Origin: a virus
DNA length: 28,529 nt
Virus record (IMG/VR): IMGVR_UViG_3300009173_000059
Coordinates: 1-28,529 of that record
Direction: 5' to 3' (one strand)
The notes under the pieces are model-generated. The model was not told the DNA's origin. It saw only the letters and a program-made list of their open reading frames with translations, and did not search any database. Made by a program: the position numbers and the translations under genes. Shown one piece after another: positions 1,667 to 28,529 of the stretch (position 1 is its first letter; each line of letters starts with the position of its first letter).

Positions 1667-1953
1667 AAAGTTCAAAATCTGCCCCGTATACTGGCAACAG
1701 TATAATGATAAAAAAACCGGATGAATTGCGGGAAACCTTAGGGACACCTATGGCAATCCGCATCCAAGCCAGCCACGATCTTGGTTGGAAGGTTCAGAGA
1801 CTAGGCGGAGCGGGTAGCGACTCGCATAATACGCCACTAGCGTCCGGAGACCTCAAAAATGAGGCCTATGATATAGTCCGACCTTCACGGAAACGTGAAG
1901 AACTAGACAGAAATGATCTAGTAATAAAGCTAATAGTTTTATTTAACAATTTG
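1667..1953 (+). ncRNA. Self-splicing group I intron (IA-like) in the major capsid gene
   Basis: All core parts can be read directly. P1: exon GGGU (1663-1666) with GCCC (1681-1684), giving the required U-G wobble at the 5' splice site. P10: exon 2 GGAU (1954-1957) with AUCU (1677-1680), directly next to the guide. P2: 1688-1693/1698-1703 closed by GCAA. P3: 1717-1723/1841-1847, seven pairs. P4: 1727-1731/1758-1762. P5: 1736-1742/1747-1753. P6: 1764-1768/1780-1784. P7: 1799-1803/1874-1878, inside GTTCAGAGACTA (R element) and GATATAGTCC (S element). P8: 1851-1854/1861-1864. P9: 1883-1889/1894-1900 with a GAAA loop. P9.1: 1902-1907/1917-1922. P9.2: 1923-1928/1938-1943. The 37 nt between P7 and P3' fold as P7.1 (1804-1807/1832-1835), typical of subgroup IA. 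The terminal G is 1953. It has no internal endonuclease gene. Length 287 nt makes both exons join in frame. Confidence 0.96.
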
Positions 1954-18421: not shown

Positions 18422-19096
18422 ATGAACCAAATGGCCGGGCGTGTAAAAGTGAAACCGTTTTTTGATGACGGCCAGATCACAATTTATCACGGGGATTGTC
18501 GCGACATCCTGCCAACACTGGAGCCGGTGGATCTAGTGCTCACGGATCCGCCTTATGGGATCGGCAAGTATACGAAAGGCGGCAAATTTACCGGCGGGGC
18601 GTTGGGACATAGGAACAAAAAAGCATTTGCGCAAAGGGCGGATCCAGTTATTGGTGATGACCACCCATTCGATCCGGCTTTCCTTTTGATGTATGGCACC
18701 CAGCAAATTATCTGGGGCTGGAATCATTACCCTGACAAGCTACCCCGTGGTAGTTGCCTAGTATGGCTGAAAAGACACGATCCCGCTTTTGGATCCTTCC
18801 TGAGTGACGCTGAATTAGCATGGTTCAGCGCGGGCGCGGGGGTTTATTGTATCCGGGATTTATCTAATAATTCTATTACCCGTCAACGTGTCCATCCTAC
18901 TCAAAAACCAGTAAGCCTGATGCGCTGGTGCATTGAGAAAGCGAACGGGCAGATCATATTGGATCCGTTTATGGGAAGCGGGACGACACTCCGCGCTGCT
19001 AAAGACTTAGGGCGAAAGGCTATAGGGATCGAGATCGAAGAACGGTATTGCGAGATTGCGGTTCAAAGATTAGCTCAGGAGGTTCTCCCGTTATGA
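18422..19096 (+). CDS. Site-specific DNA methyltransferase, beta class (N6-adenine or N4-cytosine)
   Basis: 224 residues. Motif IV (catalytic) is DPPYGIG at 42-48; motif I (S-adenosylmethionine binding) is DPFMGSGTT at 181-189, followed by GRKAIGIEIEERYCEIA. Catalytic motif before SAM motif defines the beta class. It methylates exocyclic amino groups in DNA. VHPTQKPVSLM ahead of motif I is typical. The target recognition part between the two motifs is short, so the recognition site is probably short. An in-frame ATG at 18431 is an alternative start. The stop overlaps the ATG of the nuclease at 19093. Likely use: protection of phage DNA or marking of replicated DNA. Confidence 0.9.
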   Translation: MNQMAGRVKVKPFFDDGQITIYHGDCRDILPTLEPVDLVLTDPPYGIGKYTKGGKFTGGALGHRNKKAFAQRADPVIGDDHPFDPAFLLMYGTQQIIWGWNHYPDKLPRGSCLVWLKRHDPAFGSFLSDAELAWFSAGAGVYCIRDLSNNSITRQRVHPTQKPVSLMRWCIEKANGQIILDPFMGSGTTLRAAKDLGRKAIGIEIEERYCEIAVQRLAQEVLPL

Positions 19097-21563: not shown

Positions 21564-21654
21564 ATCGCTGCCCTACTGGGTCGCTGCTATGCCTTTCTTT
21601 TTTGTCGCTGGGGTGGGTTATCTCTATCTACTAGCCAGAAGCCTCTGGCGATGA
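21550..21654 (+). CDS. Tiny membrane peptide
   Basis: 34 residues from GTG 21550, with GGAGG seven bases upstream. Residues 8-28 (PYWVAAMPFFFVAGVGYLYLL) are a single membrane span followed by ARSLWR. It overlaps both neighbours (stop TGA 21652-21654 over ATG 21651). Possible lysis or membrane-signal peptide. Confidence 0.45.
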   Translation: MDWIESLPYWVAAMPFFFVAGVGYLYLLARSLWR

Positions 21655-22355
21655 TTGCCGAGGAGTACCAAATCAGGGCGATCCCATCTGCCCAGTGTCG
21701 GGACTGGTTCCTCCGTAAGCATTACGCTCGACGGTTGGCCCCCGTTTCTTTTGCTTTCGGGCTGTATCGAGGCCCTCGGCTTTTGGGGGTGTGTAGTTTC
21801 GGCCATCCAATGAGCCCCACGCTTGTCTCTGGGGCCTTTGGAGGCCTCTACGCTGCCGAGTTTTTGGAGCTGAATCGTTTGGTAGTTACTGACGGGCTCC
21901 AAAGGAATGCCCTGAGCTTTTTCGTTTCTCAGTCTTTGGGTCTGCTGTCTCGTCCTCGGGTAGTTGTTTCATATGCCGATCCCTCTCATGGCCATCATGG
22001 CTATATTTACCAAGCCACGAATTGGACATACACAGGCTTAAGCGCCAAGCGCCCAGATTATAAGCTCAAAGGACAGGAGCGCCTGCACACTGCCAGCATT
22101 ACGGACAAGCTAGGGCGTACCGATAAGCTCCACGGGTTGAGGCAGATCGCACGGCTAAGGGAGCTTTATGGATCGGATTTTTATATGGAGGAGCGGCCCC
22201 GTAAACATAGATACTTTTACATCATCGGGAGCAGGTCAGAAAAAAAGGAGCGCCTGAACTCCTTGGCGTATCCTGTTCAGCCCTACCCAAAGGGAGACAA
22301 TCACAATTCGGCCTCTGATTATGAGCCAGCCAGTCAGGGACTACTGTTTACATAA
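21651..22355 (+). CDS. Mom-like DNA modification protein (GNAT fold)
   Basis: 234 residues. The order RDWFLRKHYARRLAPVSFAFGLY, LLGVCSFGHPMSP, LELNRLVVTDGLQRNALSFFVSQSLGLL, VVVSYADPSHGHHGYIYQATNWTYTG is the pattern of the Mom family of phage Mu, which attaches a group to adenine N6 and protects phage DNA from restriction. SYAD and GHxGxIYQAxNW are the clearest pieces; ELNR lies at the acceptor-binding strand. The C-terminus (RHKHRYFY-like, here RPRKHRYFYIIGSRSEKKERL) is basic. Last gene of the + strand modification and lysis operon, coupled to the tiny membrane peptide by a four-base overlap. Confidence 0.75.
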   Translation: MIAEEYQIRAIPSAQCRDWFLRKHYARRLAPVSFAFGLYRGPRLLGVCSFGHPMSPTLVSGAFGGLYAAEFLELNRLVVTDGLQRNALSFFVSQSLGLLSRPRVVVSYADPSHGHHGYIYQATNWTYTGLSAKRPDYKLKGQERLHTASITDKLGRTDKLHGLRQIARLRELYGSDFYMEERPRKHRYFYIIGSRSEKKERLNSLAYPVQPYPKGDNHNSASDYEPASQGLLFT

Positions 22356-26321: not shown

Positions 26322-28529
26322 ATGGCGACGCTTTGGCCTTTTTCTCGTAAAGAATCAACAATAAACAAAGATCTGGCCATGTCCCTCCAAATTGGGGCAG
26401 AATTAGCCAGCGAATACAGCAGCACACAGCAAAACGCCGATCTGAAGTATTTTGCGGACGTTTTAGCCGCTAATCCCTTAGTTCATGCCTGCATTAGTGA
26501 GATAGCCATGTCTGTCGGCGCTATCGGATACCGGCCTGTTATCTCCAGAGTCGGCAAGGAGGAGGATTTCCGTGGGCCTTTTGCTGAGGTTCTCAATAAT
26601 CCGTACGGCCCCAATAACGCCCGATCTAAAACCGATTGGATTGAGGAGCTCATTTTCGATTTATACATATACGGCAATGTGTACGTATTTCTTGCGGCTT
26701 CTGAGGCGGGGCGGGGGCGCGTGACCTCGCTCCAGTTCCTCAGGCCTGACTTAGTGACCATAAACCTCTCCCCGGACGTCGCGGGCGGCGTTAAATCCTA
26801 CACATTTACACCCTCACAGGGCGCGGACGGTCTCGAAATCCCCGCCGATCAGATCTGCCATATGCGTATGCCAAATAATTCGAGCGGTCGAGCTACTGGG
26901 AACGCCTACGGGATTAGTCCCCTCTCATATATCAGAAACGATGTACAAATGGACGCCCACCTTTCAGACCTAGCTATGAGTTATGTAAAGTCTTCGGGAA
27001 TCCCGGCGGGAATTTTGAAATTACGCTCCACACAAATCAACGATCCCGAGCAGGCGGCAGAAATTCGACGGCGCTGGTCTGCTGCCTTAGGCGGTAAAAA
27101 CGCGTGGCAGGTGGCCCTGCTCGATGCCGATGCTGAGTATCAGGCTCTCTCTCCGACAGGATCAGGCGGCGGCATAGCTCTCCCAGATGTGCGGGAGGAA
27201 ATCCAGACTAAGATAGCTCTAGTTTTTCAAATCCCGCAAATTTTGATCGGCAGCCTCGCAGGCGTGCACAATTCTTCCTATAATTCGTATAAAAATGCGA
27301 TGGTCTCATTTAGGGACGAATTAATTTATCCAACCTCTCTCAAGGTCGCCAATTTCCTCACACAGATCTCAGATCGTGCCTTCAGTGGGGGCGCGTATGT
27401 CGTCCTAGACACGAGCAAGAGCCCACAATGGGCCGAGGATGTCACTGCACAGAGTAAAAGAGTCGAATCACAATACTCGACCGGCATCATATCCCTCTCA
27501 GAAGCGCGGGATCTGCTGGGCTATGACCCTCTCCCTAATAATCGGGGCGATGTAAGACGAACCCCCGCCAATGTTTTCGAGGTTCCGATCTCAGCCCCCT
27601 CTCCTCCGTCACAATTAGAGGCCAGTAGTGAGAAAATGATCAGCCTCGACTTAGGGAAAGGGCTGGAGTTGCCTGTCCTCCCTGAAATTGAGCAGCCAAG
27701 GACCGGCCCCGTACCCATTGAGGGCGCGGATCGCCTTATGAGCGCCATCCGGTCAACAGAGCAGGCGAATATTAACCGACTGGCTGGAGAACTAGAGCGC
27801 GGCTATTTTGCGGGCGTGATTTCAAACATTAACGGACGTACTGGGCGACTTTTAGAGGACGATACAAGATACACCCCCGGAAATCCCTACCCTTGGACGG
27901 CTTCCGAGCTCGTCCCTGACTCTTTGACGGTTTCGCTCCAGAACATACTGACAGACTCTGCTGAACGCGTTGTCAAGGATGTTTATAAAGCTATATCAGA
28001 CACGGGCCTCCTCCCGTCAATTTCCCCCACTCAAAAAGAACTTACCGAGATTATCCAGAAAGCTCTGGGCGATGAGCCCGCCGGCTACCGGCCAACTCTA
28101 GCGGGCCGATTTATTGCTCAGGCCGTAACGGCTGCAACACGTCAGGCTTTATGGATTGCGACCACTACAAGGAAAGCAGTGGAGTCTGTACTTTCGACAG
28201 CGATGGAGGAAGGCCTAACAGTGTCACAGATGACGCAAGGGCTGACCTTGGAATCAGATGGGCGAGGCTTTAAGGGCCTTAAGTCTGTTATGGCTGGATT
28301 TAAGAACCGGATCCCCACTATTGCAAGGAACCAAGTGGCGACCGTGACCAATTTAAGCTCCCTGAATTACTACGAGGACTCTGGAATTGGGAAAACTATG
28401 GCCCTCGACGGGACGGAATTTGATGCAACGTGTGCCGCCCGTGATGGTCAAATCTTCACCCTATCAGAAGCGGCTGGAGAGCAGGAACACCCTAACGGGG
28501 TCCTTGCGTGGACACCTGTAGTGGATCGG
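26322..28529 (+). CDS. Portal protein fused to MuF minor head protein (runs off the window end)
   Basis: 736 codons without a stop up to the window edge; joined to 206-277 by the terminal overlap the protein has 759 residues. The first ~400 residues are an HK97-family portal: NPLVHACISEIAMSVGAIGY, WIEELIFDLYIYGNVYVFL, AYGISPLSYIRNDVQMDAH, YVKSSGIPAGILK, QVALLDADAEYQALSP, EEIQTKIALVFQIPQILIG. The C-terminal part after a Pro-rich linker is MuF-like, ending in MTQGLTLE, IPTIARNQVATVTN and the CAARDG/EHPNG motifs. Portal forms the DNA entry ring; MuF is ejected with or lines it. ATG 26322 follows AAGGGT. An ATG at 26312 reads only 12 codons. Confidence 0.92.
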   Translation, partial: MATLWPFSRKESTINKDLAMSLQIGAELASEYSSTQQNADLKYFADVLAANPLVHACISEIAMSVGAIGYRPVISRVGKEEDFRGPFAEVLNNPYGPNNARSKTDWIEELIFDLYIYGNVYVFLAASEAGRGRVTSLQFLRPDLVTINLSPDVAGGVKSYTFTPSQGADGLEIPADQICHMRMPNNSSGRATGNAYGISPLSYIRNDVQMDAHLSDLAMSYVKSSGIPAGILKLRSTQINDPEQAAEIRRRWSAALGGKNAWQVALLDADAEYQALSPTGSGGGIALPDVREEIQTKIALVFQIPQILIGSLAGVHNSSYNSYKNAMVSFRDELIYPTSLKVANFLTQISDRAFSGGAYVVLDTSKSPQWAEDVTAQSKRVESQYSTGIISLSEARDLLGYDPLPNNRGDVRRTPANVFEVPISAPSPPSQLEASSEKMISLDLGKGLELPVLPEIEQPRTGPVPIEGADRLMSAIRSTEQANINRLAGELERGYFAGVISNINGRTGRLLEDDTRYTPGNPYPWTASELVPDSLTVSLQNILTDSAERVVKDVYKAISDTGLLPSISPTQKELTEIIQKALGDEPAGYRPTLAGRFIAQAVTAATRQALWIATTTRKAVESVLSTAMEEGLTVSQMTQGLTLESDGRGFKGLKSVMAGFKNRIPTIARNQVATVTNLSSLNYYEDSGIGKTMALDGTEFDATCAARDGQIFTLSEAAGEQEHPNGVLAWTPVVDR
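28325..28529. repeat. Terminal overlap equal to bases 1-205
   Basis: 205 bases match the window start with 10 substitutions, all between about 28406 and 28466; the outer 81 and 64 bases are identical. Reading frame is conserved and three residues change (E/A, R/Q, Y/F). It marks closure of a circular or terminally redundant map of 28,324 bp. Confidence 0.85.

Follow-up and report, generated by a model that had tools for sequence, protein, structure and literature searches.

The window analysed here is the entire 28,529-bp IMG/VR virus record IMGVR_UViG_3300009173_000059 from an uncultured phage. The two ends of the record (1-205 and 28325-28529) overlap over 205 bp with 95% identity, and the near-identical contig L011 (11,238 bp) spans its end-to-end junction; very probably, therefore, the record covers a whole genome of about 28.3 kb, either circular or circularly permuted, whose assembly combined two strain variants. 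The portal and prohead protease genes lie upstream of the major capsid protein gene and the tail genes lie downstream, which is the usual arrangement, and the protease, the portal, the tail genes and the second capsid exon are all open reading frames. Within the portal gene, a patch dense in differences between the window and the near-identical contigs (27203-27425) was observed, representing local recombination or strain variation. A G/C-rich hairpin, judged by eye, is located immediately 3' of the capsid stop codon (2806-2840, + strand) and is possibly a terminator or an mRNA stabiliser. The record also encodes a Mom-family protein (21651-22355, + strand; PF25680, 3.5e-40) and an N6/N4 DNA methylase (18422-19096, + strand; PF01555), and from these two genes this small phage may modify its own DNA.

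In the capsid region, all features of which are on the + strand, the open reading frames 1166-1705 and 1705-2799 lie in different frames. The second opens at a spurious start, the ATG at 1705, and runs through the interrupting sequence (1705-1953) into the capsid coding region to give a 364-aa ORF, which a gene caller would annotate as the capsid gene. When 1667-1953 was removed and 1666 joined to 1954, exon 1 (1166-1666, 167 aa, the N-terminal region to AQG) and exon 2 (1954-2799, 281 aa, GYFVP to NMA with the PF05065 core) gave a single 448-aa HK97-fold major capsid protein with the junction AQG^GYFVP (^ marks junctions and insertion points throughout). The original prediction that a length of 287 nt (2 mod 3) rejoins the shifted frames was thus borne out by the spliced translation. 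The spliced protein matched PF05065 (7.9e-26, starting at residue 167) and phrog_10, 'major head protein', over residues 13-446 across the junction, while exon 1 alone had no match to phrog_10.

The interrupting sequence (1667-1953) is a group I intron of 287 nt without an endonuclease ORF, identified by the Rfam model, the restored frame, homologues with empty sites and covariation. The RF00028 search proposed beforehand matched 1663-1900 on the + strand with 85.5 bits (E=1e-20) over the full model 1-253, against a curated cut-off of 50 bits, and RF00028 was the sole Rfam RNA family above its cut-off in the window. The fold of 1655-1960 was 5.1 s.d. more stable than those of dinucleotide shuffles (z = -5.1). 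Both predicted core elements were present, R being GTTCAGAGACTA and S being GATATAGTCC (1870-1879; sequence and Rfam alignment). A base-by-base check confirmed that every helix claimed can be drawn, including the P2 hairpin with a GCAA tetraloop (1688-1703), the 7-bp P3 (1717-1723 with 1841-1847) enclosing P4-P6 and P7.1/P7.2, the P4-P5-P6/P6a domain (1727-1792), and the P9 (GAAA loop), P9.1 and P9.2 hairpins (1883-1947). The 5-bp P7, the helix that binds guanosine and is contained in the R and S elements, pairs GACUA (1799-1803) with UAGUC (1874-1878) in both the Rfam alignment and the helix check, and the P8 hairpin lies inside the P7 span, directly before the S element. The P3-P8 domain, the P4-P6 domain and P7 by which group I introns are recognised were all found. 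P7.1 and P7.2 (1804-1835; GGCG/CGCC and GCGGGU/ACUCGC), the extra helices typical of subgroup IA, are located between P7 and P3 and carry compensatory changes in the related introns L010, L198 and L155, so that the intron is of the subgroup IA type.

Covariation was assessed on diverged introns from the same capsid family. Unguided RNAalifold on 12 introns recovered P2, P3, P4, P5, P6/P6a, P7.1, P8, P9 and P9.1, and 37 of the 55 pairs showed two-sided changes with pairing kept. P9.2 and P7.2 were misaligned by MAFFT and both covary in a hand alignment, which was hand-chosen and is weaker. P7 and P6 were without covariation in the 12-intron set, the former because P7 is invariant among these introns (alignment A4).

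The splice sites were located by guide/exon matching. The 5' splice site follows U1666, which closes the P1 exon strand GGGU (1663-1666) in a U.G wobble with guide G1681, and the terminal base of the intron is G1953. The internal guide sequence AUCUGCCC (1677-1684) consists of AUCU (1677-1680), the P10 strand, and GCCC (1681-1684), the P1 strand; GGAU of exon 2 pairs with AUCU directly 5' of the P1 guide strand. When the first 40 intron nt were shuffled, about 0.9% of the resulting sequences contained a 4-bp U.G-ended P1 and a 4-bp P10 around one guide G. With the U.G-ended P1, the P10 pairing and the terminal G, the splice sites fall at exactly the positions that had been claimed; the intron in the capsid gene is real and its coordinates are exact.

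A profile search of IMG/VR with these capsids gave 80 loci. Two belong to near-identical contigs that share the intron of the window, the only difference in the intron of L011 being GCAA to GUAA in the P2 loop. Of the other 78 related capsid loci, about 60 were continuous and 18 were interrupted upstream of GYFVP/GFFVP. Of 15 interrupted loci searched with RF00028, 13 matched and the remaining two were cut by a contig end, whereas none of five read-through control loci matched; in whole records, RF00028 found one intron each in 5/5 interrupted records and 0/3 read-through records. Among intron-free capsids, even the nearest homologues share only about 33-39% protein identity with that of the window, so we infer the window's own empty site from relatives. 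The sole cellular relative of the capsid, on one Hyphomicrobiales MAG contig, reads through the junction uninterrupted, and a tblastn search of isolated phages with exon 2 of the window's capsid gene gave no match.

Scanning for the S element followed by the exon-2 junction revealed a second type of capsid, 33% identical in protein sequence, whose gene carries a 284-nt intron at exactly the same junction, and a further scan revealed a 270-nt intron (L029) 15 nt upstream of the window's site. DNA patterns linking the S element to GGxTAxxTxGTxCC gave mostly chance matches outside capsid genes, the only true matches being the L007/L009/L010/L014/L015 group, L029 and the near-identical contigs. 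Altogether, the introns in these codons are group I introns that lack an ORF, measure 270-303 nt and occupy four positions in a 19-nt stretch: site A (GGT^GG; the window, the L010 type and the L206 type), site B, 15 nt upstream of A (GAT^ACAGAT; L198, L155 and L163), site C, 9 nt upstream of A (GAT^ACAGAA; L159 and L160), and site D, 4 nt downstream of A (GGCGGGT^AT; L189). A capsid-blind scan by the intron core added at least four further cases in the same capsid family, at A and C.

The guides follow these sites. The window's guide pairs with its own exons over 4 bp in P1 and 4 bp in P10, versus 1 and 1 with site B/C exons. Across all sites, the guides form a P1 of 4 bp and a P10 of 3-5 bp at home, and elsewhere P10 is only 1-2 bp, so the guide-by-exon cross-table falls into blocks by site. 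Introns at sites A and D carry the guide GCCC (for GGGU) and those at B and C carry GUCC (for GGAU), a compensatory change between sites in the guide/exon pairing, and the P10 strand varies along with exon 2. The base at -1 is T in every intron carrier versus 15 of 49 distinct empty site-A junctions. The introns of L010 (site A) and L198 (site B) are 84% identical and those of L155 (B) and L159 (C) are 95% identical; thus, closely related introns occupy different sites, the first pair differing by a re-matched guide and the second pair reusing the same short target GAT^ACAGA. The GG(Y/F)FVP codons are therefore an insertion hot spot for related introns whose guides each fit the site they occupy, and this capsid hot spot may be new.

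Clustering of the capsids at 95% amino acid identity gave 41 clusters, 10 of them intron-bearing. Intron-free alleles are also present in 7 of these 10, so the hot-spot introns have been mobile recently; for most carriers, the nearest empty exons have 84-95% DNA identity. No endonuclease-length ORF was found in the introns measured, including that of the window, and no match to HNH_3, HNH or GIY-YIG was found in the window's record. Beside the capsid genes of the relatives and in their whole records, no homing endonuclease accounting for the mobility was found; one intron-free record contains an HNH domain several kb off. For such introns, reverse splicing has been described as well as collaborative homing that relies on a free-standing endonuclease (PMC3984707), and the movement could have proceeded by either an endonuclease acting in trans or reverse splicing.

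The locus almost certainly carries an ORF-less group I intron of subgroup IA type in a tailed-phage major capsid gene, spliced to give an intact capsid protein. After transcription, the RNA would fold and the guide sequence would pair with the end of exon 1 to form the U.G-ended P1, upon which a guanosine held in P7 would attack after U1666. Exon 1 would then attack after G1953, with P10 aligning exon 2, and the joined mRNA would encode the capsid protein in one piece; ribosomes entering the intron would meet an in-frame stop after 12 codons and so stay off the catalytic core. That the major capsid gene contains a complete group I intron lacking an ORF, as the original prediction had it, is supported jointly by the Rfam model, the restored protein, the intron-free homologues and the covariation across diverged introns, and on these grounds we infer with high confidence that the intron is spliced.

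Three other readings were weighed against splicing at 1666/1954. That the sequence is a degenerate relic, a former group I intron which no longer splices in a phage that is defective or has a dead capsid gene, is very improbable. In its favour, no endonuclease that would maintain mobility was found in the searches above; however, its core elements and P1/P10 are all intact, the protease, portal and tail genes have stayed open, as has exon 2, the near-identical contigs retain the intron with at most one loop-neutral change, and decay would mean the loss of an essential gene. A capsid made without splicing as separate chains of 179 aa and, from ATG 1705, 364 aa can hardly be credited, even though neither ORF is broken and the second can start at an ATG of its own within the intron, since the extra residues are unconserved, the other introns of 270-303 nt would give differing short read-through peptides, the RNA helices covary and the splice pairings follow the site. 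HK97-fold subunits are, moreover, single chains. Other splice positions such as 1657^1954 or 1672^1954 also keep the frame, but are just as hard to accept because only 1666^1954 gives a U.G-ended P1 with an adjoining P10 and yields the EGG(Y/F)FVP spacing of the intron-free homologues. All three readings were rejected.

The spliced reading settles a gene for which callers would report two wrong ORFs, and the related loci indicate that, in many uncultured phages, the mRNA of the most highly expressed protein can accommodate a ribozyme. More interesting than the single intron is the wider hot spot; its four neighbouring sites, intron-free alleles and site-tracking guides let the spread and shift of endonuclease-free introns be tested. 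Tentatively, and with the balance tipped slightly against it, GG(Y/F)xVP of PF05065 could be a general hot spot in which ORF-less IA introns re-target neighbouring sites via guide change, capsid genes being their main home in environmental phages; if true, this would provide a naturally occurring series in which the movement of introns lacking an endonuclease could be tested.

How often capsid genes host such introns was estimated in IMG/VR from the ORFs downstream of group IA introns sharing one core pattern. Among the matches listed, clusters totalling 36 of 123 were capsid genes of seven families, a rough share and no census since it is based on the downstream ORF and on cluster representatives; eight were psbA and eight were ribonucleotide reductase. 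The share suggests that it is common for uncultured phages to have introns in their capsid genes, a statement not found in the published literature covered, with subscription journals outside it. Among the matches listed in L033-L150, the downstream ORF was endonuclease-VII-like (PF02945) in 12 and GIY-YIG in 4. Also among the matches listed, L077, L096, L102, L110 and L111 had two to three same-pattern intron cores about 0.3-1.3 kb apart on one strand, suggesting genes split by several introns.

The subgroup IA introns of T4, SPO1 and Twort interrupt conserved protein genes and have extra P7.1/P7.2 and P9.1/P9.2 helices, as in the window; unlike the window's intron, they are mainly in nucleotide-metabolism and replication genes, with endonucleases frequent. 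The IMG/VR hot-spot introns (L010, L198/L029, L155, L159, L189, L206, L220, L229, L069 and L146) share the same helices and the same few capsid codons, but are only 53-66% identical to the window's intron, some of them lying 15 or 9 nt upstream or 4 nt downstream with guides re-matched. Introns before SU10-like, Gp10A-like and other capsid families have the same R/S core type upstream of the capsid 3' exon, whereas their hosts belong to capsid families other than the window's. Phage introns have been reviewed (PMC3984707), and a capsid intron in lactococcal phage Tuc2009 is mentioned by way of citation in PMC3706429. A close parallel is the mycobacteriophage LittleE (JF937101), for which splicing of a capsid group I intron was shown in 2013 by RT-PCR and N-terminal sequencing (PMC3706429). 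As in the window, the GGYxVP junction of an HK97-fold capsid gene is interrupted, a U ends exon 1 and a G ends the intron. In contrast to the window's, the LittleE intron is 819 bp with a homing-endonuclease ORF, scores only 30.7 bits against RF00028, belongs to an unrelated high-GC phage and is inserted after GGTGGT and before TACGCAGTCCCC (GGTGGT^TAC), 3 nt or one codon downstream. With a precedent at practically the same junction, and with capsid genes seemingly common hosts in environmental phages, the importance first attached to the single intron as notable was overstated: a group I intron in a capsid gene is already known, and that of the window is a further example.
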